Part shown: positions 1,683 through 34,089 of the stretch, piece by piece
Numbering within the stretch: the first letter of the stretch is position 1
How the letters are laid out: every line of letters begins with the position of its first letter
Assembly (NCBI GenBank): GCA_907163375.1
Contig: CAJQUW010011508.1
Span: 372,001-436,000 of the forward strand
DNA: 64,000 bases
Direction of reading: 5' to 3'
Source: Prostheceraeus crozeri
Taxonomy: Eukaryota; Platyhelminthes; Polycladida; Euryleptidae
Made by a program: the position numbers and the translations under genes
Notes under the pieces: generated by a model
Database searches by the model: none
The model's input: the letters and a program-made list of their open reading frames with translations, nothing else
What the model was told of the DNA's origin: nothing

Positions 1683-2141
1683 TTACAAAGGCATTGACAC
1701 TGTCGGGTTTACGGTATTTACAAATGTTGAAGTCATGCCAAATGCATTCGAGAACTGTCCTTCCATGGGTTCCGTTGAGTCACTTGGAATATCACAGGGA
1801 TCGGTGTCCGAATCACTGAAGGTAGTGAGGTCGGACGATACAACGTGGTTAATGTCATTTTCAGGGGTGCGCTGCAACGCGTTCTCCGAATCAACACAGG
1901 GATCGGTGTCCGAATCACTGAAGGTAGTGAGGTCGGATGATACAACGTGGTTAATGTCATTTTCAGGGGTGCGCTGCAACGCGTTCTCCGAATCACTTAA
2001 GGCATTGAAGTCCGATCGTACTTCCTGATTGTTTCGAATTTCACGGGTCCACCGTAACGCATTCTCCAAGTCCGAGGGTGGAGCTTCGCCCAGCTCCCAT
2101 TCATGACTGCCCTCGTCGGACAGATGGTCGGTATCCGCCAC
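1683..2141 (-). pseudogene. Acidic C-terminal tail frame of the gypsy polyprotein, with tandem repeat
   Basis: This open frame lies between integrase and the polypurine tract and is rich in Asp, Glu and Ser. It holds two near-identical 34-residue repeats (each with NALQRTPENDINHVVSSD) and parts of a third. It has no recognised domain. Its frame probably joins the integrase C-terminus through a frame change near 2150; a separate small ORF is the alternative. Confidence 0.5.
1795..2000. repeat. 102-bp tandem repeat in the gypsy 3' region
   Basis: Two adjacent units, starting at about 1799 and 1901, are nearly identical; a partial third continues past 1980. The period is 102 bp, a multiple of three, so the frame is kept on the minus strand. 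It lies just upstream, in element orientation, of the polypurine tract. Confidence 0.85.
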
Positions 2142-2148
2142 TCGTAGA

Positions 2149-3713
2149 TCAGGAACTTGGACACTCGCGTCGCCACAGTTTCACGACCTTGACACGGAAA
2201 TCACACACACAACGCTCATGCTGCCCTTGTCGTAACCGGGCAAACTCAGGAACTTGAACTGTTCGCAGATTATTGAAGTGAATCCGCCTTTTTCTGAGAC
2301 GCAATGTCGAGTTCACCAAATCTCCTTCTTCGTTTCTCGCAGGTTCGATAGTATAGAGTGATCCTGGAAGTCGTTCTATGATACGGTAGGGACCTATGTA
2401 CTGTGAGGGATCTAGTGTGTGTTTCGGTTGACCTTTGACGAACACCCAGTCACCTACTCGAAACTTATCGCCGTACACCTTAGCATCAAAGTATCTTTTC
2501 TGTTGACGCTGAGCTTGCGAATAGGAAAGCCTTGCCTTGGAATGGACGACTTGCAACTGATTGCGAAGCTGAGCCAGGAACTCATAAGGTACTAAAGGAT
2601 CATTGGAAGATGGGTCGAACTCTGACTCGTAGGGTAAGAGAAGTTCCCTTCCTAAGGTCAACATCGCTGGGTAAAGCCAGAGCTAGCACTTTCAATGGTC
2701 CTCAAATTCAAAAGGACGGGTCCTAGATAGTCTTCCCAATCACCATTTTTCTCCGCCAAGAACACTCGTAGGCCTGCCTTCAACTGTTGGATAGCGCGTT
2801 CTACCTTCCCATCAGCTTGAGGGTGCCGGGGGGAAGTGCGAATCTTTTCAATTCCTAACTCCGCGCAAATAGAATTCATCAAATTACCGGAAACTTCTTG
2901 ACCCTGGTCACTGTATAATTGCTCGGGAATGCCAAAACGACAAACCCAGTGACGGACGAAGGCTGAAGCAACAGTACGAGCCGTCTAATCGGGGATAGGG
3001 ATAGCCTCGATCCATGAGGTAAATCTGTCAATCATTACACATAAGTAGATATTACCTGTCGAAGATGCTGTTAATGGTCCCGCCGAATCTATGTGAACAG
3101 CTTGGTTGACGTACCCCTTTAGTAAGGGCTGCAAGGATGCCACTCGGTGACGACCGGTTCTCTTGGTTTGAGCACAAATGAGACAACATCTAACATAATC
3201 CTCTATCTCCTGCGTACTATCTGGCCACCAAAACTTCCTGTGAATCCTACTTCGGGTTTGCCATAACCCACCATGTCCTGATTGTTTATGTGCACCGACT
3301 AAGATGGCTGAGTGTAACTTCCAGGGGGTGGTAATTTGGCATAGATTCTTAGACTTTCGAATAAGAATACCGTCACGTAATTCAAGCTTATCGAATTGAC
3401 TGAATAGAATCCTGGTAATTCTACCATATGACAAGAGAGCTGGTTTAGGGGGTCTGGTCTGACCTTGTCGAAGGTAGTCAATGACAGGGCTGATCTCGGA
3501 ATCCTCTTCCTGAGCCGCTCTTAAATCGATTTCAGGGGACAGAATAGGAGCTTCGGGAACTTCAGGACCGTCGGAACTTTCACTATCGGCATCGTGAGGG
3601 CTAGAAAAGGAATTCATCTCCGATATTACCATGATAGGGGGGCGAGTAACAGAAGCCACCACCCTTTCGGGTTGTTCTGGCCTTTCACGATTTGGAGATT
3701 CTCGACATTCCAC
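2149..3713 (-). pseudogene. Gypsy integrase, interrupted
   Basis: The zinc-binding HHCC region is in frame 3713-2985 (GAHKQSGHGG through CCLICAQTKRTGRH), followed by the start of the catalytic core (VHIDSAGP, first Asp). An in-frame TAG at about 2985 stops it. The core resumes with SDQG (second Asp) and KVERAIQQL (Glu) in the frame ending at 2658. The C-terminal domain in 2664-2149 has the GPY motif (YIGPYRIIERLPGSLY). All three catalytic acidic residues are therefore still encoded, but stop and frame changes separate them. Integrase inserts the cDNA into the genome. Confidence 0.88.
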
Positions 3714-3766
3714 AATGGAAGATAGGATCCGATTGGTTTCGTAAGGGAGATACTGATTGGTCAGAG

Positions 3767-5212
3767 CTACGTGGGGTTACAGGACGGGCATTCATCATGA
3801 CCTGCCTTTCTGAAAGGCCTTCGGCTCAAGCTATCGGCATTGCCATGGTATTTACCAGGGCGGTACAATACCTCAAAGTTGTACTCTTGAAGACGCCCTA
3901 AAATGTCACCATCAACGTCAAAATTGAAACCGTCAAGAATGGTGTTCCACCGTATCAGCATATCGTTACGCGATGATCGTGCTCTTTTTAACCATCTCAA
4001 AGCGCTATGGTCGGTACGCACGATGAATGGTCGGGGAATGAGGTACTCATGGTAGTATTCTAAGAAGAAGACGAGTGAAAGCATTTCCTTCTGCGTAGGA
4101 CAATATGATCGCTGCTCTTTGGACAAAGACTTACTACCAAACCCTAGAACTCGCATATGACCGTCTTGTGTCTGGGAAAGTACGGCGCCAATACCCGAAT
4201 CACTGGCGTCACAATCTAAAATGAACGGAGAAGAATCAGAGTTGAAGTCAGGGAAACCTAGAATGAGTGCCGCGGTCAAAAGTTCCTTTATCTTGTGGAA
4301 TGCAATGTCATGATCCGTAGTCCAATTCCAAACCTTAGAAATTTCCAAATTACGCAAAGGTGAAGCGATCTGGGACAAATTGAGCACAAATTTCTGGTAA
4401 TAGTTCACTAATCCTAAGAAGGACTTAATCTCTTTCCCATTCAAGGTGGTGGGGCATAACCTGATTGTTTCAACCTTACTAGGATCGGTGTGAATTCCAC
4501 TGGGAGAGATGGTGTGACCAAGGAAAATGATCTCAGATTTGAAGAGGTGACATTTGACGGGTTTGACCTTAATACCCGCTCGCGCTAACCGCTCTAGAAC
4601 GTCATCTAAATGTAGGAGCGTGTCTTCAAAAGTGGACCCGTAGACAACTATGTCATTGAGGTAGGCGATAGCTGACTTGAAAAGCAAATCTTTCAGTAAG
4701 TAATTCATAAGACGCTGACATGTCGATGGTGCACCGTTGAGACCGAAAGGCATCCGTAAAAACTGATATTGAGCATCCCGAGTTACGAATGCTGTTTTTG
4801 GGGCATCTTTGGGGTCAATTTTTACTTGGTAATACGCTTGGTTGAGGTCGAGTGTGCAGAAGAATTTGCTACCACCGAGAGATTCGAAAATGTCTTCAAT
4901 TCTGGGCATTGGATAACTGATGGATTCGGTAACTTCATTAACGGCCCTGTAATCGATACACAACCTCCAGGTTCCATCTGACTTCTTCACAAGAATCACT
5001 AGGCTTGACCATGGAGACTTGGATGGCTCAATTACTTCTAACTTCAACAATTTTTCTATTTCTTGATTAATAGCTTCCTTTTTAATGGGATTAGCACGAT
5101 ATGGAGGACGATTTACCGGAGCATGAGAACCAGTGTTTACATCATGCATTATGACGTCAGTATTGCCTAAATCCTCCGGGTTCTTAGATATGGCTGCTTG
5201 ACGTTTCATCAA
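3767..5212 (-). pseudogene. Gypsy reverse transcriptase and RNase H
   Basis: A single 481-residue open frame. The reverse transcriptase fingers and palm are recognised from the LDLNQAYYQV motif (catalytic Asp 122), FLRMPFGLNGAP and FLGHTIS. The second catalytic box reads YLNDIVVYG (residues 184-192) where active enzymes have Y-x-D-D, so one catalytic Asp is Asn (codon AAT at 4655-4657, minus). RNase H follows with DCDASDSGIGAVL, the QKEML glutamate and RTDHSALRWL. The end has the connection motif YRPGKYHGNADSLSRRP typical of gypsy elements. The frame is open but the active-site change should inactivate polymerisation. Confidence 0.93.
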
Positions 5213-5233
5213 AACTACCTCTATGGCTTCTTT

Positions 5234-6257
5234 CTATTGTTCGGAAAGGTGTTCACCGAAATCAAATTGATTTATCCATTCAGGAGAAGGGCGGCCTATC
5301 GACGCGACTTTCACCGTGTCAGAGGAGGGTAAAACCAACGGTACATTGTTAACAGCCTCAATCAACTCAGTAGTCTCGATAGATTCAACGTGGCCAATAA
5401 CACCAGCCATTTTCAATTTGACTTCATTTGATTTGGTGTTAACTAAACGCATTGGGATGCGTCCAAACTTATCGATGTGCACTAGCGACTCGTATGACAA
5501 TATTCCATCGGGCAAGTTCACGGGTTGGATAAACAGCGGACAGGTACTGGAAGGGGCTACAAGGTTCGTGACACGACAAGAGAAGACAGTTTCAGAGAAC
5601 GGTGGGAGTGAAACAGGATGGTGTGGGAGAACTTCTTGGGGAGACTCTGGGCCACTCAGTGGAACACGCCATGCCGCTCTCGAAATGTCAAAAGTATCAT
5701 CGGCGTAATTGATACAGCAGAGATACGCCTTACAGAAGTCAGAGCCGAAAATCAGCCGGAGCCGGAGGAATTTCTGATGACATGGAGCTGTCAATTAAGG
5801 TAGCCTCGCAGCCACTATCGATAAGCCCAAACATCGTCCTGGAAAGTATACGAGTGGAAACTGAGGGGTACTGAGGAACAGACAGGTCACTGACACATAA
5901 ATTTACTTTTAGATCTGGTTTACTGGGGACTTGGGATTGTTTCTGCACTTCCGCAGCCAAACAATGCTTGGGCGGCCTCAATTCGGACGTTATCGGATGA
6001 ACTCTACATTTATCAGGCATGGTGCAAGGATCAGAGGGGACTGATGGAATAACTGGAGGCACTGGCGAAGAGTCCGTATAACTGCGAGAATGGTGGGCTA
6101 TATCTTCAATAGAGGAGGGCTCGCCACCACCAACCCTCCCTACGCGTTTCCCTGAGAGGGAACTGAAGAACCTCCGTTCCTGTTCGGTCTTTGGGAACAA
6201 TCGCGGGCCATGTGGCCTACAACTTTGCAGTGGAAGCACTTCCTTGGTTTCTGGCAA
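5234..6257 (-). pseudogene. Gypsy aspartic protease region
   Basis: Minus frames 6257-5739 and 5794-5234 cover the protease between gag and reverse transcriptase. The retropepsin-type active site is visible as FGLIDSGCEATLID, with DSG as the catalytic triad. The first frame overlaps the gag frame by about 120 bases, and a further frame change lies near 5770, just after the DSG motif. Retropepsins act as dimers and cut the polyprotein. The break right after the active site suggests loss of function. Confidence 0.75.
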
Positions 6258-6947
6258 TTCTGGAAAATATGACCCGGCTCATTGCAGTTTCGACATTTCG
6301 AGGGAGGTCTATAACTACTGTTTGCAAGGAAAGTTGTGCTAGTTGGAAAATTCACATTCATCAATGGTTCCGCGTGTGACTGTTCCTGTGAGGAGACGGC
6401 ACGAACATGATGACGTCTGTGTCTCACAATGTCTTCGAGATACTGGGCCCTGCGCAAAATATCTTTAGGGTTGGACAGCTCGTATATGACGTCATCTTCA
6501 AAAATCTTATCTAGCAAGGCCGGGCTACGGATTCCTTCAAGAAAGACTTCCCGTACCCTTTCCTGATGGAACACGACTGGCACGTTTGTCTCTCTTGCCA
6601 AATAAAACAAGTTGGTCATGTATGTAGAAAGGGATTCGTTTTTTCTTTGTTTTCGTGAACTAAGAGGCACACGTGCACCTAATCTTTCTGTGATGGTCGA
6701 CACGAGCTCCATAAACAAGCTCTGAACTTCCGCAATATCTCGAGACTTAACCAACCTCTGGTTCAAACGTTTCTATCTCTCTCCTAATTTCTGAGGACAA
6801 GTTCAAAAGAAACATGTACGACTTCATTTCCTCGGGTAACCTGGATATCTTGGTCCAAAAATTAAAATCCGAAAGAAACGCGTTTATCTTGTCCTTTCTC
6901 AAAGACGCGGGGTTTCGCGCTCTTAATGTATGTGCTCCACTGGCCAT
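6140..6947 (-). pseudogene. Gypsy gag-like capsid/nucleocapsid region
   Basis: Two overlapping minus frames (6947-6747, then 6766-6140) make up a gag-like protein, so there is a frameshift near 6750. The first begins MASGAHTLRARNP. The second carries two CCHC zinc knuckles close to its C-terminus, CRNCNEPGHIFQNC and CFHCKVVGHMARDC, followed by a basic tail. Zinc knuckles bind the element's RNA during packaging. The frame break could be decay or a programmed shift, but other breaks in the element favour decay. Confidence 0.85.
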
Positions 6948-20371: not shown

Positions 20372-20479
20372 ATGGAGGAAGGAGTCGCAGTCATTCGGGT
20401 TGATGGCATGACCTGTAATTCTTGTGTGAACAACATCGAATCTAATCTGAGGAAGCATCACAAAATCTTATTCATTCGG
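20372..20479 (+). CDS. ATP7: ATP7 copper-transporting ATPase, coding exon 1 (first half of HMA domain 1)
   Basis: This exon encodes the first 36 residues of a copper-transporting P-type ATPase, the pump that moves Cu(I) into the secretory pathway or out of cells. The exon begins after a TTATTTCAG acceptor at 20340. The first ATG, at 20372, has A at -3 and G at +4, and an in-frame TGA lies at 20351-20353, so the start is well fixed and 31 bases of the exon are 5' UTR. The product begins MEEGVAVIRVDGMTCNSC; Cys15 and Cys18 are the copper-binding pair. The exon ends at CGG|GTGAGT in phase 0. The second half of the domain is 7.3 kb downstream. At least one upstream non-coding exon is implied by the acceptor. 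Confidence 0.9.
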
Positions 20480-26817: not shown

Positions 26818-27794
26818 AACTTAAAGTCATTGGAAGAAAAGGCTACTTTAAATTTTTGAACCTTTGTAAGGCGGAACGCAGTGTCTATGTCTGTCACAAT
26901 TTTTGGGCTTAAAATTGTTCAAGTCTGAGAGCAATTCTCTATTAGATTTGCCAATGTTTTGCAAACGTTATAAGTCTAATACCGGTAGTCTGATTTAATA
27001 GATGTATAATTATGCTTTTCTCAGGGCTGATAGAAGAAACGGCAAATACCCGACACTCCTACAGCTATGTTCGATAAAGTATGATTGATAAAGACCAAAA
27101 GAATCAAAACTGGCACATGATGTAGTATTTGCAGTACTTGTATGATGGTAGATTTGAAGGAGAATCACATAAATAGATTATCAAGACCTTTCATGCCTTG
27201 TTTGCGACTTTTTGTGTTCTGATTTATTATACTGTTTTCCCAAACATCTACAAGTAGAGCATCGCATTAATTAGAAGGGTAGTTTATTTCAGTCTAAATG
27301 GACTATGAGTGTCACATGCTCTCAATTTTAATGGAAATAATCGAACCTTTAATGAAAAATGATCAAGAAATTAAAAATAAAGGTAGATCAACTGTAAACT
27401 TCTAGTCACTGAATCTCAAAATTTTCATAATCGCGCGAATATTGAATCGCGCCCGCCACTGCCTCAGTGCGTTATTGTCTAGATACATGTAGAATGACAT
27501 GCTCTCTCAATTTTCGACGTTTTATCATGCAGGAGTACATTATAAATCACCGAATTATTCTCGTTCTTCATAATAAATTTAGTAATATTAATGGTCATTT
27601 ATCATCCACTTTTAAATCACGGCTCGAAGGGTTTGTGCTCTTTTCACATGTGTGCTTTTATAGGCGCAGACAATAAGCCATTGCTCCTTAACGTCTCTTC
27701 ATTATCACAAAATACACGTTAAGTCTCATGTATATAGTTGTATTCATATATTAGCGAACGTTTTTTTCCCAGCGCTATATTTTGTCGTTTCCAG

Positions 27795-28559
27795 GTTTCG
27801 CTTGAAGACGCAATTGCAATCGTCATATTCCGTCAAGAAAACTTCACAGCTTCCCACGTGGCGGAATTGATTGACGATGTGGGATTTGAACCAACACAGT
27901 TGCCTTCCGAAGAGGTGACAAGACGAGTTCACAGCCTTGTTCTTCCATCGGACACCCTAGTGGAATCATCAGAGATAGCCGGTCACATTTACTACAAAGA
28001 GGTAAAAGTAACAGACACAAAAGTCTGGTATGACCCTCGGCATGTGTCTGAAGATGTGTTACGTGGACGAGAAGGCAACCTGATCGAAGTGGACGATGAC
28101 GGGGAGGAATCTAGTCTTATTTCTGTCCAGGGAATGACTTGTCAGTCTTGCGTCGACACGATAGAATCCACTATAAGAAAGAGGAATGGTGTTGTGTCAA
28201 TATCCGTGTCACTCGAGGATGCTCAGGCTGTAGTCCGCTACAGACCCAGTGCGATATCTGCGGATGATATAAGGGAGGCAATAGAGGACATGGGATTCGA
28301 TGCCGAGCTCCTGACCTCCAACGACAGGAAGAGACGACAAACAAACAGCAGTTGCGCTGGATTTGATGAGTTGGCCCGTCGAGATGAAGTGGAGAATACT
28401 GAAGAAACTGTGATCAGAATCGAAGGAATGACATGCAATTCTTGTGTTCGGAATATAGAGGGAGTCGTTGGCGGAATGGAAGGCGTCACCGCGGTGAAAG
28501 TCAGTCTGGAAAGGAAAGAAGGGTGTGTGAAATACTTTCCCAGCAAAATATCAGCTCAG
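27795..28559 (+). CDS. ATP7: ATP7 copper-transporting ATPase, coding exon 2 (HMA domains 1-3)
   Basis: 765 bases, 255 codons, phase 0 at both ends (TTTCCAG acceptor, CAG|GTGAGA donor). The first residues, VSLEDAIAIVIFRQENF through ELIDDVGFE, complete HMA domain 1 begun in exon 1. HMA 2 follows with VQGMTCQSCVDTIES (Cys pair at protein residues 152 and 155) and ends EAIEDMGFDAELL. HMA 3 begins IRIEGMTCNSCVRNIEG (Cys 250 and 253) and runs into the next exon. Between HMA 1 and HMA 2 is a linker of about 75 residues whose part KEVKVTDTKVWYDPRHVSED resembles the second half of an HMA fold without a CxxC. The HMAs receive copper from the ATOX1 chaperone and regulate the pump. No membrane helices are encoded here, as expected. 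Confidence 0.95.
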
Positions 28560-30878
28560 GTGAGATAAAAGACATTCCCATATGTATAACGCGTTATCAT
28601 ACGGTAATATTTACGTGTTGTTGTGCGTTCCCTTGAATCTTGGCCCTTCAGATCTCTCAAACCGAGTTGATATGGTCGTGTAGATTTCAAGCCTGTCTAT
28701 TTGAGTCGGAGACGCAATTTACTCAACGAATTAGTTGGGAAAGCTGACTTCCTGATGTTTGATGACATGTAGTCATCTGGGCAGGGGTATGCTAACGTCG
28801 CAAAATATACGGGTTAGAAATGGACTGTCGTAAGTTTACTTTAGCCGAAATCGGAACGTAGCTTTCTCGATGCTTTAACCGCATCATATTTGCGAAGCGA
28901 ACATCATGATCGACAAAACAAAAATGAAAATATTTTTCACGTCCGTTTATTTCATAGTGAAAACCAGATATTTACAAATAAAGTAAAATAAAATTGTCGA
29001 CTTTTCGGCGGTCACATATATCAAGATATGTTGCTGATTAATTTGTTATTAGACAGTAATATGCTGATCGACAACTTGCGGATGACACTTAAAAGGATTG
29101 CCGTTAAAATGCTACGATAGAAGCACGATAACAAGTTGGCAGATTCAAGATTCGATAAAAGTTCTAGATACAAAGTCCAGTAAGTCACACTATGCTATTT
29201 GGAGAGCATTTGAAAGCATAAAAATGTGTCTTCCTTCAGCTGTGACTTGTAACTAATAGTTATTTTCTTACCATTCGCAGTTGTTTTTTGATTTTTCATT
29301 AACGTATTGTTCACACATTTTCCAGAGGGTCACTTTCAAAGCCAATATTTTCCAAAAGTTAGCAATATATACTTTCCTCGAAATCAAATTGCTTCTCAAT
29401 GCGCAATTTTTTATCAATGATCAGTTGTAAATGGCAAAATTATAACTCTCCCTTTTCGAATCCTCAGTTGTTTGCACTTAGCAATCACATGCTTATGACA
29501 CAGGACCGAAAGTCCGAAGGAATTAGATGCGATGTGCAAGGTCAAAAGGCATTGCATTTCCTAAACATGGCATCCCGTGGCGAAGATGTTTGGTGAAGAA
29601 GCTTGACAGTTGAATGACGTGACGATGCATCATCTTGCATTAATGTCACAGGCATTTTCTAAGTTGAATATGCAGTGGAATAACTTGATAAAAATACATT
29701 TGTAGGTAACTTTCATGCAAAACAAAGTTTGTGAAGAACTTTATGCACTGGTGAATCCACCATGTTCTACCACACACAAACATTTTATCAGCTTCATCGG
29801 GAACTTGATTGGTTTTCATGAAGTCTACGTGCTACATGCTGATATCTCAACCGAGTGAAAATTCGTCTCGTCTATTTCAGAAGATTGATTTGGGCTACAA
29901 TTAGTCAACAACCATTCTAAAAATTGATCACTTCTTGAAGCATCTTCAGATCCTGGAGCAGAAATGGAAGCGGATCACGGATCTGTAGACCGATACGGAT
30001 GACCCTTGTTGTTTTGAATACGGGTCTTAATAGTTTACGGTGCATTTATCCACTGGGCACTTCATACTTACGTGTAGTTGAAAGCGTGTTATTACTAAAT
30101 CTTAAAAGTACACATTTAGTGTATAGTACACGCTTGAAAAGTGTTGGCCTATATACATAGAAACCCGAAGTGTCTTAGAAATCAAGTTTCAATAAGACTA
30201 TTCACTTCCATTTTGCATAAAAATATCTGACTGCAAACAAAATGTTTTACTGAAACTCGTGCGTTACACAGATTCACAAATGCTCTATTCCCAGCAAATA
30301 ATACGAGGGGTGATTGATAAGTTCGCGGCCTGACATAGAAAGCTTAAAGCCAGGCCATTATGCACATGTGGATTGATACAATGGAATGTGCTGACGGCGC
30401 ATGACGAGTGATCAGTCGATCCGGTGAACTGTTGGTGAACCACAGCTACTTAACTTCAGTTACTAACTTATCAGTCAGTTAGTCAGATAAGTGTTGCGCA
30501 AGATGGATCACGTTTCAAATCGAGCTGTCATTCGTTATCTCGGCTTGAAAGGACTCACACCAAAGGAGATTCAGGTGACTTCCAATTCAGCTGGTTCCCA
30601 TTCAGCTGGTTCCAACTGAGATGGATCTCATTCAGCTGGTTCCCAATCAGCTGGTTGTCTGTTCAGAGTCTCATTCAGCTGGGAATTTTTGGCTCTCTTC
30701 CCTGCTGTGACACCCGTAGATTCTCGCAGTCTGAGTTAAGAATGAGATAAACAAATATGTCATGATTAATTTATATCTTAGTTTTTGTATTAACACTTAC
30801 ACAATTATGAAAACAGAAGACTCAATAATCAAAACTCATATCAATATTTATGATACAATAAACCATCTGAACAGTGAG

Positions 30879-31127
30879 CTAAGATATAACTTTACTTTGT
30901 GAAAGAGATACAACACTACACTTGCTGCAGTAGTCCCAAGCGTCAATATCACTTTCCTGTAGATTTTGCTTCAATCGCTGCAATCTTGAAGTAGCTTTGG
31001 CATACTTTCGCCGCTGCTTGGGGGGTGATGCTCCAGCTTTCAGCAAGCGAATAGTCGTCTCCTCGGCATCCTGTACTTCTCTCAGACATTCAATGAACTT
31101 GGAGATATTCGGGTGGCGATTAAAGAT
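30879..31127 (-). CDS. MULE transposase, exon 2
   Basis: An acceptor TTTTCAG precedes 31127, and the frame follows exon 1 in phase 0, adding 82 residues that start IFNRHPNISKFIECLREVQD and end at TAG (30879-30881). The segment is helical and rich in Lys, Arg and Gln (SPPKQRRKYAKATSRLQRL), like the C-terminal part of MULE transposases after the catalytic Glu. With exon 1 the product is 464 residues. The intron is 441 bp (31128-31568) and very AT-rich. This exon is inferred from splice sites, phase and open length, not from homology search. Confidence 0.75.
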   Translation of the reverse strand: MFNRHPNISKFIECLREVQDAEETTIRLLKAGASPPKQRRKYAKATSRLQRLKQNLQESDIDAWDYCSKCSVVSLSQSKVIS

Positions 31128-31568
31128 CTGAAAAGAAATAGAGGAAATACTCGTGTTTTGTAATTTTTAGTAAAGATCATAGAGTAGAAATATAAAGTAA
31201 GGGAACAGTGTCAACTTCAACAAAATGTAGCAAGCACTTTATATTTTTACATCAAAATAATCAGTTTTTTACGGAGAATACAATTCTGAAGTCCAAAAAA
31301 ATATTTGATGCAATTTTTATCATCAGTTAGTTTTATCAACAGATTTCATGTTATGTATTATACTTATATTTAATTACTACATATTACTATCATATTATTT
31401 TATCATTTTCTATTACATTATTTTCTATTTGTCAATAATTAAGAAAACTATTAGAAAACAATATCATCAATAATAGAATTTAAAATCCATGATAGGCCTA
31501 AGTACTAATATACCATAATACCGCTACATGATATGTGTCATTCAACCGAGATAGGTGAAGAAGCTTAC

Positions 31569-32714
31569 CTTGCGAAATTTTGCATTTCTGCTCTCCAATG
31601 CATTATTGGTCCTGATTCCACTACTGTTGTCGTAATGACACCAAATCTCTCTTGAAAAGATGGCATCCAAATCATCCACATATGTCTTAGTGACGTAGTC
31701 CACAAATTCTTGACATTCCTCAGGACACTCACCTATCACCCGTACCCATACTTCATCAATCTTGTCCTTTGGAAGAAAAGGCAAACCGAGGGCTTTTCTC
31801 ACTATGCGTCCAACTTCTTCATTTTCTCGATATGGAATTGTCAATCCAAGTCGCTGGACTCCACGCCAAATCGATTGGGTGTAGTGAAAATGACATCCAC
31901 GAATTGAAGTGCTTGGAAATGAATGTTGTACCGCGTTTATGGCCGCTTTCTCGAAATCCAATTGAACGGTATCGGGTTCAATTTTCAAGTTGAATTGAGC
32001 TGCTTTCAATTTCAATAAATCTAATAAGCGCTTGTATGTATGTTCTGTCTTGTTCGGTAAAAGTGCATGGCATACTGGAACCAACGTATTGCAAAATGAT
32101 GCATATATCATGTACAGCTGATGGAATAGCCGTGCAGCAACATGGAACGTGCTATCCATGTAAAGACACTTGGAGGATGCCAAAATACGGAGACATGGGA
32201 TTGTGAAGAGGGCGAGAATTCGATCATCACTCCCATCGTCTATCTGAAGAAAGTCCTGTCCAGATTGTGTTTTTGTCCATTCACCTTCGATCATAAGCTC
32301 AGAAAGAGTCTGAGGCTGATTCGGTAAGCGTGTACTACGTGCCCGATACATTGAGGACTTGAGAGACTTGAATGCAGGTTGAAGTACGTCCTCTTCGTCA
32401 TCGGACTTTGAAGAAAACGCCGTAGAATATAGTCGCTTCATCGACGTTGTCGGTTGTTGGAGGGCATTATTGACAGCTTTTTTCTTCTTCCGTATCACGC
32501 CTACGGCAGCATTTTCTGGTAAATGTTCGTGACTGGATACTTTGGAGGTAATGATGAAAGAATCCTCCTTAACAATTCCTCGAACGTTGCAGTTTTGGAG
32601 ACGACAGGCGTACGATATGGTTCCATTCTTATTAAGTCTTTCTTTTTTAAACAAGTAATTTTGGTAAAAAATGAGATTCGCACCCTTTCTGCTTTCGATA
32701 TATTCGTAATTCAT
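31569..32714 (-). CDS. MULE transposase, exon 1 (FLYWCH zinc finger and catalytic core)
   Basis: 382 codons from ATG at 32714 to an AAG|GTAAGC donor. Residues 1-65 form a FLYWCH-type zinc finger (FYQNYLFKKER, Cys37, Cys42, His62, His64) that is expected to bind DNA. A basic, low-complexity linker follows (RKKKKAVNN). The MULE catalytic core is residues 180-382: first Asp in LYMDSTFHV (D187), second in VQLDFEKAAIN (D253), the conserved GCHFHYTQ (C274, H275, H277), and the Glu in RTNNALESRN (E374). All three catalytic acids are present. Without splicing the frame would stop eight codons later. FLYWCH plus MULE is a known combination in animal Mutator-like elements and domesticated proteins. Confidence 0.92.
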
Positions 32715-34089
32715 GTTGCCGATTAGAGTGAGGCTTCTATGACTGAGCAGTTAATATATAAGAATTTCATGTAATTCTATGACATCAATTTAATTTAAAT
32801 CTCTCAATATGTTAGCAATTTCGTATCGTCTTTCCACAACAAATCTTTCACATGTCAATATTATAATATTCTGACAAACTGTTTTCTTATGTTAAGAATT
32901 TAGAGGTATCAATTTTCAACTTATCAAATTATCGTGATGATATAATTGACAGTTATTTTGACAGTATGTGATTGAACCAATTTCATGCTGTTTCTTGAAA
33001 ATTCCCAGCTCGTTGAGACTGCATGACCAGCCGGTTGGGAACTCGAATCGTTAGCTTAGTCATCTTTTGATGATGTAATGAACACAAAGACCCATCTGAA
33101 TGGGAACCAGCTGAATGGGATGCAGCCGAGATTCATGATGATATGGTTGGAACACATGGTGAGAAACCTCCGTCCTACACCACATTCAAGAAGTGGGCTT
33201 CAGAATTCAAGCAAGGAAGAGAGAGCTTGGAAGATGATCCCGTTGTGGAAGACCAGTGACAGTGAGCACAGAAGATGTGATCGATCATGTTCAAAAGATT
33301 ATTCTTGATGATCGCCGTACAACCGAGCGAAAGATTGCCTTCGAACTGAAGATTTCACAAGAGCGTGTCCATAGCATCATCCATCATGAACTTGGCATGA
33401 ACAAAGTTTCCGCTCGATGGGTGCCACGACTGCTCACACCAGAGAACAAGCGAGCCCGCTTTCTCATCTCAAGGGACAACCTGGCGCTGTTCGTAAGAGA
33501 TCCTGAAAATTTCATGGACCGGTTCATTACGATGGATGAGACTTGGGTTCACCACTATCAGCCAGAGTCGAAAGAACAATCGAAACAATGGAAGCACCCA
33601 GGATCACCAACTCCGCGGAAAGCCAAGGTCACCAGGTCCGCGGGAAAGGTCATGGCCTCCATTTTTTGGGATTCGAAGGGAGTTTTGTTGTCGGACTCAC
33701 CGGATCGACTGATCACTCGTCATGCGCCGTCAGCACATTCCATTGTATCAATCCACATGTGCATAATGGCCTGGCTTTAAGCTTTCTATGTCAGGCCGCG
33801 AACTTATCAATCACCCCTCGTACTTGCCTCGTCCCATCTCATGTAACAGATGACTGAAATAATTGCCATTATTGCTATTTTTGTCATTTTTACATAGAAA
33901 TCTTTGAATGGAATTGAATTCTCTTAATAAGACAAGTCTTCGTTGGCGAAGTCATTTTCTAGGATGCTTCAGGTACGCTGATATCAAATTCGAAGATTTA
34001 TTAATTGCAAGGATGCAATTCTCAACAGCTGTCATTTCGTCACACTACTGTTCACCTAACACAAAGATTGCACAGATAGAATAATAAAT

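Follow-up and report, generated by a model that had tools for sequence, protein, structure and literature searches.

A structurally complete Mutator-like element (MULE) of 2,554 bp occupies positions 30574–33127 of the 64,000-nucleotide stretch of Prostheceraeus crozeri DNA analyzed here (the window). With a probability of about 0.88, this element (the window copy) is one member of a dispersed MULE family of Muta/Phantom type that spread in a burst, the window copy itself stemming from a later wave and encoding an enzyme of doubtful competence. The data support recent mobility of the family.

Results

Structure of the Element and Its Transposase Gene

Three features define the MULE superfamily—a DDE domain with D, D, and E; a target duplication of 8–11 bp; and terminal inverted repeats—and all three are present in the window copy (Table 1). 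Both ends and the exact 8-bp duplication named in the original prediction were recovered at identical coordinates; a chance 8-bp match at preset ends has a probability of ~2e-5. The ends are composite, built of 15-bp units that form a genuine tandem array (TRF score 98), as the prediction of repeated end units had anticipated, and the number of units differs from copy to copy. Terminal inverted repeats match at 83–91% across 32–42 bp, with a second, inner inverted pair of 23 bp (87%). By analogy with related elements, the 15-bp units may serve as transposase binding sites.

Table 1. Features of the window copy and its surroundings (window coordinates)
Feature	Position	Strand	Description
ATP7-like copper-ATPase exon(s), open frame	27738..28568	+	Two HMA domains
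Host mariner	30304..33820	+	Rearranged; MULE inserted in mariner transposase N-terminus
Target site duplication, left copy	30566..30573	.	GAGATTCA, exact match to 33128-33135
Left terminal region	30574..30690	+	GGTGACTTCC at the terminus; inward, 15-bp units around ATTCAGCTGGTTCCC
Exon 2	30879..31127 (read 31127-30879)	-	Open frame; C-terminal 82 aa (IFNRHPNISKFIE...) + stop
Intron	31128..31568	-	441 bp, phase 0, GTAAGC...TTTTCAG
Exon 1	31569..32714 (read 32714-31569)	-	FLYWCH finger aa 5-64; MULE DDE domain aa 184-280
Right terminal region	32998..33127	+	Inverted relative of left end with two 15-bp units; GGATGCAGCC at the terminus
Target site duplication, right copy	33128..33135	.	GAGATTCA

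Two exons encode a 464-aa transposase with FLYWCH and MULE domains. The MULE domain (PF10551) matches with E = 2e-12 and 47.8 bits against a curated cut-off of 27.6, and the predicted FLYWCH finger is borne out by a match to PF04500 that spans profile positions 1–62 of 62 (E = 5e-6; 27.0 bits, cut-off 23.6). Exon 1 carries D187, D253, C274/H277, W358, and E374, so that the catalytic residues proposed from the sequence stand in the spliced frame, spaced 65 (D–D) and 120 (D–E) residues apart. The motif previously read as CxH is in fact CxxH (C274-H275-F276-H277).

The same genome contains a second, intronless FLYWCH-MULE family of 2,063 bp (family B; L068–L090), whose protein is 40% identical to the window transposase over 451 columns. 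Because this intronless homologue aligns over the exon junction, with a one-residue gap nearby, it supports the proposed stop-free, splice-compatible exon 2; a homologue could instead have contradicted that exon, and the idea of a wrong exon 2 model was rejected on the same alignment. Across the 38 copies of the window family that were read, the donor GTAAGC is kept in 37 and the acceptor CTTTTCAG in 36, the remaining two ending before the acceptor.

Insertion into a Rearranged Mariner

The window copy lies within a mariner whose right end carries an inverted copy of the mariner's first 124 bp, giving arms of 126 bp (TA included) that are 100% identical. We read 11 other mariner copies, of 40 scored from 710 candidates; none carries this rearrangement, and 10 of them have an empty MULE site with a single GAGATTCA copy, the eleventh differing by one base. 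Further HMA pieces occur near positions 20405 and 55211. Together with the ATP7-like exon(s), these pieces place the MULE-in-mariner composite probably in an intron of the copper-ATPase gene, antisense to it.

A Dispersed Family with a Star-like Tree

A search of the 2.05-Gb host genome gave 50 matches. Scored candidates (40 of 1,335) were picked by similarity, so the age and intactness figures below are biased toward copies resembling the query. Two matching pieces at C5003 and a partial one at C10299 fall outside the set of 38 copies. The terminal 16 bases of the left end recur in 36 of the 38 (≤1 mismatch), and both ends are present in 30, of which 23, including the window copy, have exact 8-bp duplications; five others show one mismatch, L034 shows two, and L037 lacks the duplication. 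A full spliced frame is intact in 4 of the 38 copies.

The tree covers 32 copies, L038 and L044–L048 being left out as partial or interrupted. It is star-like, with a mean pairwise difference of 1.69%. The window copy groups with L012 and L015 (support 100) in a clade that is among the youngest, one of several about equally young, and its terminal branch is 0.26%. Its nearest relative among scored copies is L012 (14 differing sites; 99.4% identity), and no identical copy occurs among the 40 of 1,335 candidates scored.

Relative to the majority of copies, the window copy differs at eight amino acids. G188S, which adjoins catalytic D187, is shared with L012 and L015; F391S and G441S are private. 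At the aligned positions family B has G188 and Y391. Substitutions were counted in 31 copies, the tree's 32 minus L030, which occupies the same site as L022. Shared variants comprise 43 nonsynonymous, 8 synonymous, and 1 stop in exon 1 and 5 nonsynonymous and 2 synonymous in exon 2; among variants shared between these 31 copies there is no sign of purifying selection.

The original prediction of a recently active, intact, autonomous element therefore divides. Recent activity holds for the family, given the star-like tree and the short terminal branch of the window copy, whereas support for intactness and autonomy extends no further than the reading frame. The copy carries G188S, F391S, and the other changes, the shared variants bear no signature of purifying selection, and none of the scored copies is identical to it.

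Interpretation of the Window Copy

What is established for Muta1 and its relatives suggests how the element would move: the FLYWCH finger would recognize the 15-bp units at the ends, D187, D253, and E374 would catalyze excision, and an 8-bp stagger on insertion would generate the target duplication. The family would have spread as a burst that left copies ~1.7% apart on average, followed by a few later, smaller waves, one of which would include the window copy. That copy would have landed in the rearranged mariner, probably within the ATP7-like intron, with its frame unbroken and its own enzyme of doubtful competence.

Many copies probably moved in trans, because L024 and L025, which occupy different sites and are only 0.54% apart, carry a common broken exon 1 (1,184 bp each, with codon 5 of the aligned frame a stop). 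Six other copies (L039–L044) share an internal exon 1 deletion in which 158 bp are replaced by ~5 bp; five have both ends, with exact duplications in four and a single mismatch in one. The spread of such broken forms, the changes at conserved positions of the window copy, and the shared variants free of purifying selection all fit a passenger whose frame is unbroken through youth, whose enzyme is weak or dead, and which was mobilized in trans by sister copies. We give this reading about an even chance: S188 and S391 may be tolerated, and L012 and L015, which also carry S188, are likewise among the youngest copies.

Current autonomous activity of the window copy itself is unlikely. Its intact frame, catalytic triad, ends, and duplication would suit such a role, as would its place in one of the youngest clades on a short terminal branch, and the presence of G188S in L012 and L015 implies that copies with this change have spread. 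Against this, the closest scored relative already differs at 14 sites, two changes are private, and a third abuts D187 where family B keeps glycine; 18 of the 23 family B loci read are, by contrast, identical.

A related and less probable reading takes the three-member clade as a functional branch whose catalytic neighborhood is altered. Its members have Ser for Gly after the first Asp, and the family shows E-S-R-N in place of the E-A-W-H of family B. If true, an altered transposase would have kept this clade amplifying once the main burst was over; the already small weight of this reading is slightly lowered because several clades are about equally young and two of the three members replace C274 with Tyr.

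That the copies arose through duplicated segments or redundancy in the assembly instead of by transposition is very improbable, and the idea was rejected. It could account for one case, L022 and L030, which share an insertion site and 293 of 294 left-flank bases. Of the 36 copies whose left end was located, no further pair shares at least 28 of the last 40 left-flank bases, so every other tested pair contradicts it; exact duplications also differ from site to site. The young copies with different 8-bp flanks that the original prediction called for do exist. Origin as a domesticated host gene has a negligible probability and was rejected. The intact frame and the conservation of the splice sites might hint at it, but the element is multi-copy with its own ends and target duplications, 34 of 38 copies lack an intact full spliced frame, and purifying selection leaves no trace among shared variants.

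Relation to Known MULEs

By architecture rather than by tree, the window element is a Muta/Phantom-type MULE, an ordinary, new member of a known animal kind. An N-terminal FLYWCH finger occurs in 13 of 14 Muta families, though not in all Phantom members, and short subterminal tandem repeats in 10 of 12 long-TIR Muta families; the window copy has both. Muta elements have been placed in Phantom, group 20 (PMC6446971).

Judged by description rather than sequence alignment, the closest parallels are Muta1 and Muta5 of Aedes aegypti, reported with an N-terminal FLYWCH finger, a DDE triad, and 8–9 bp duplications, as here (PMC5225508). Their transposase genes are described with two (Muta1) and three (Muta5) exons, and their subterminal tandem repeats as 12 bp, and 15 bp in Muta5 (PMC5225508); the window copy has two exons and 15-bp repeats. 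Muta1 and the window copy share a His 24 residues past the second Asp (PMC5225508, PMC6446971). They differ in size and ends, Muta1 being given as 3,198 bp and 504 aa with a TIR of 145 bp (PMC5225508), whereas the window copy has imperfect ends. Muta1 is described with seven identical copies and activity in yeast, whereas none of the scored copies is identical to the window copy. According to the Muta1 paper, no earlier report of an active MULE in insects existed (PMC5225508).

Tm1-A, a Phantom-like element of Meloidogyne, is described as similar in length (2,593 bp), in its FLYWCH + MULE transposase (496 aa), and in its composite, foldback-like ends with repeats; it differs in its 9-bp duplications, its nematode host, and its missing last FLYWCH His (PMC3169594). 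In a survey of arthropod MULEs (322 element types, 222 species), reported D–D spacing is 60–76 in all clades but one, D–E spacing is 120–135 in 8 of 12 clades, and usual length is 2.5–5 kb (PMC13359780); the window copy falls inside all three ranges.

Outside the host genome, no usable relative was found in viral contigs, phages, or prokaryote genome contigs, and ten viral loci matching a degenerate HPNIW-x-FI pattern included none (tblastn, best E = 2.0). Solved structures offered nothing close, the only one listed being the FLYWCH1 zinc finger (E = 0.95). Rfam and tRNA (bacterial code) scans of the window were empty.

An Intronless Family in the Same Genome

Family B resembles the window family in its FLYWCH-MULE transposase, 8-bp duplications, and 15-bp end units and differs in lacking an intron and in end sequences without notable similarity. 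With most of its loci read identical, it is the stronger candidate for being active at present. One genome holds, beside a two-exon family whose copies read are mostly broken, a largely uniform intronless one, and the pair is useful for studying how an animal MULE stays mobile.

Target choice was compared with random draws. For 19 family B duplications, the observed degree of palindromy was reached in 1,455 of 5,000 draws; for 22 duplications of the window family it was reached in 41 of 5,000, a hint of a weakly palindromic, GTTTAAAC-like target preference.

Structure of the Element and Its Transposase

The original observation is sound: the window holds a Mutator-like element (MULE) of ordinary kind, from a recently mobile family, and this copy is at best a putative autonomous element. 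The element spans 2,554 bp (30574–33127). Its left end starts GGTGACTTCC and its right end, read inward, starts GGCTGCATCC; 15-bp units of the ATTCAGCTGGTTCCC type follow the terminal sequence at both ends. The predicted ends and exact 8-bp target duplication were both recovered, GAGATTCA being read at either flank. The two exons (see table) splice into a 464-aa transposase with Pfam MULE (E = 2e-12) and FLYWCH (E = 5e-6) domains, both exceeding cut-offs. The catalytic acids D187, D253, and E374 lie where predicted, at spacings of 65 (D187–D253) and 120 residues (D253–E374), and the Cys-His motif previously read as CxH is instead CxxH (C274, H277).

Positions and strands of annotated features in the window
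Feature	Position	Strand	Basis or description
Transposase exon 1	32714–31569	minus	spliced frame
Transposase exon 2	31127–30879	minus	spliced frame
Transposase intron	between exons 1 and 2	minus	441 bp, phase 0, GTAAGC...TTTTCAG
Retroelement	3767–5230	minus	reverse transcriptase and RNase H domains
Copper-ATPase HMA-domain pieces	near 20.4, 28.1–28.5, and 55.2 kb	plus	sequence match

Published spacing ranges for most arthropod MULE clades include both 65 and 120 (PMC13359780). In Muta1, H307 lies 24 residues past D283, the distance that separates H277 from the second Asp here, and its replacement by Ala abolished activity; W401 precedes E419 by 18 residues, compared with 16 between W358 and E374 (PMC5225508). 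The element also resembles, by architecture, Muta1/Muta5 of Aedes aegypti (PMC5225508, PMC6446971) and the Phantom-like Tm1-A of Meloidogyne (PMC3169594). It is a further member of a known MULE kind, likened to Muta/Phantom on these architectural grounds. The end units, finger, and catalytic site would work together, by analogy with Muta1 and with what is known of MULEs in general. Searches of viral, phage, and prokaryote sequence collections returned no relative, and a literature search for the end-unit sequence returned a single 13-base match, in an unrelated paper.

The exon 2 model was corroborated by an intronless MULE family of the same genome (family B; loci L068–L090), which came from a Pfam MULE search scoring 150 of 559 candidates. 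In family B, one unbroken frame of 471 aa (counted from the first Met) encodes a FLYWCH-MULE protein. Aligned with the spliced protein of the window element it shows 181/451 identities, and the alignment continues across the exon boundary, a one-residue gap falling a few positions past it. By this alignment, the C-terminal region is conserved and the window element's intron genuinely interrupts it.

Insertion Site

The element's flanks are two parts of a single mariner, whose transposase is broken in its N-terminal region. We searched the genome with the right part, scored 40 of 710 candidates, and read 11 other copies: ten carry the unoccupied site GGAGATTCATGATG with a single GAGATTCA, and the remaining copy (L057) differs there by one base. 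Mariner copies with a single GAGATTCA show directly that the MULE inserted with an 8-bp stagger. The host mariner (30304–33820) has undergone a rearrangement of its own: its initial 124 bp appear a second time at the right end, unchanged in sequence but inverted, an arrangement found in 0 of the 11 other copies. The inverted copy cuts off the remainder of the mariner transposase, with the TA ends intact; three of the 11 (L051, L052, and L057) have an unbroken transposase frame of ~350 aa.

The Pfam HMA domain is present in all three copper-ATPase pieces, the 55-kb piece scoring under the cut-off; for the 28-kb open frame the matches are P-type copper transporters (E = 3e-83). Because these pieces stand in exon order on either side, the MULE–mariner composite is most likely intronic, within an ATP7-like gene and in antisense orientation to it.

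Family Copies in the Host Genome

When the element was used to search the Prostheceraeus crozeri assembly (2.05 Gb, 14,165 contigs), 40 of 1335 candidates were scored and 50 matches obtained, which makes the counts lower bounds; the sample comprised 38 copies, the window copy included. Both ends were found in 30, with 8-bp duplications that were exact in 23 and had one mismatch in five; one copy (L034) had two mismatches and one (L037) no duplication. Two copies (L022 and L030) represent a single insertion site on two contigs, with flanks identical at 293/294 positions on the left and 216/299 on the right (ungapped comparison). The number of 15-bp end units differs among copies. The splice donor GTAAGC is retained in 37/38 (L033 is the exception) and the acceptor CTTTTCAG in 36/38, the other two ending short of it. 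The spliced frame is intact in four of the 38 (the window copy, L012, L013, and L014). Six copies (L039–L044) share an internal exon 1 deletion (158 bp lost, ~5 bp inserted), and five of these retain both ends. Among 22 target duplications, a weak palindromic preference (GTTTAAAC-like) was reached by 41 of 5000 random draws; no such preference was seen in family B duplications (1455/5000).

Age of the Family and Competence of the Window Copy

Across 32 copies, mean pairwise difference was 1.69% and the tree was star-like. The window copy forms a clade with L012 and L015 (support 100), its own terminal branch being 0.26% long. The copy closest to it is L012, with 14 differences (0.59%); no identical copy was found among those compared. 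Other young groups are L024/L025 (0.54%) and L040/L041 (0.66%), all four copies having broken frames. Given the star-like tree and these young groups, the family spread recently, and the window copy stems from one of the later waves, which were few and in part made up of broken copies. The part of the original prediction concerning recent activity stands as mobility of the family; for the window copy, autonomy is doubtful.

At 14 sites the window copy does not have the state found in most copies, and eight of these differences alter the protein, which counts against an active enzyme. G188S, directly after D187, is common to the window copy, L012, and L015, and F391S and G441S occur in the window copy alone; at the aligned positions, family B has Gly (188) and Tyr (391). 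MULE domain scores were 47.8 bits for the window copy, 48.3 for L014, 45.0 for L013, and 39.6 for L012, so G188S by itself hardly reduces the profile score; L012 and L015 also carry C274Y.

Under a neutral expectation of 68:28:4 per cent (nonsynonymous:synonymous:stop), variant counts showed no trace of selection to keep the enzyme working: shared variants numbered 43:8:1 in exon 1 and 5 nonsynonymous and 2 synonymous in exon 2, and singletons 113:39:14 and 30:7:1, respectively. These counts, together with the broken copies among the young groups, fit mobilization in trans.

Other MULE Families and Window Features

For present activity, family B, rather than the window element's family, is the one worth testing. 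Its element is 2,063 bp (537–2599 in the oriented locus L068), with 15-bp end units unlike those of the window element. The sequence is identical at 18 of the 23 loci (17 across the full 2,063 bp; L070 across 2,061), a figure that assembly homogenization of repeats may bias; these loci were among the best domain scores, hence a nonrandom sample. Exact 8-bp duplications flank 19 of the 23 (all except L070, L072, L073, and L078) and differ among loci, so the sites are separate. Among animal MULEs, family B is a strong candidate for current activity, ahead of the window element's family. A probable further family (family C) occurs at many places in the genome, with a 452-aa open frame scoring ~56.8 bits at each.

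Elsewhere in the window, the retroelement and its adjoining frames (1683–6772; gag- and integrase-like by eye) are probably a Ty3-type LTR element. A 102-bp unit occurs twice at 99% identity (1793–1995) within the adjoining open frame 1683–2180. Two long direct repeats, 41294–46493/48302–53500 (5.2 kb, 99.5% identity) and 36041–37698/46505–48163 (1.66 kb, 99.6%), suggest that segmental duplication took place recently in the interval separating the 28-kb and 55-kb HMA pieces.
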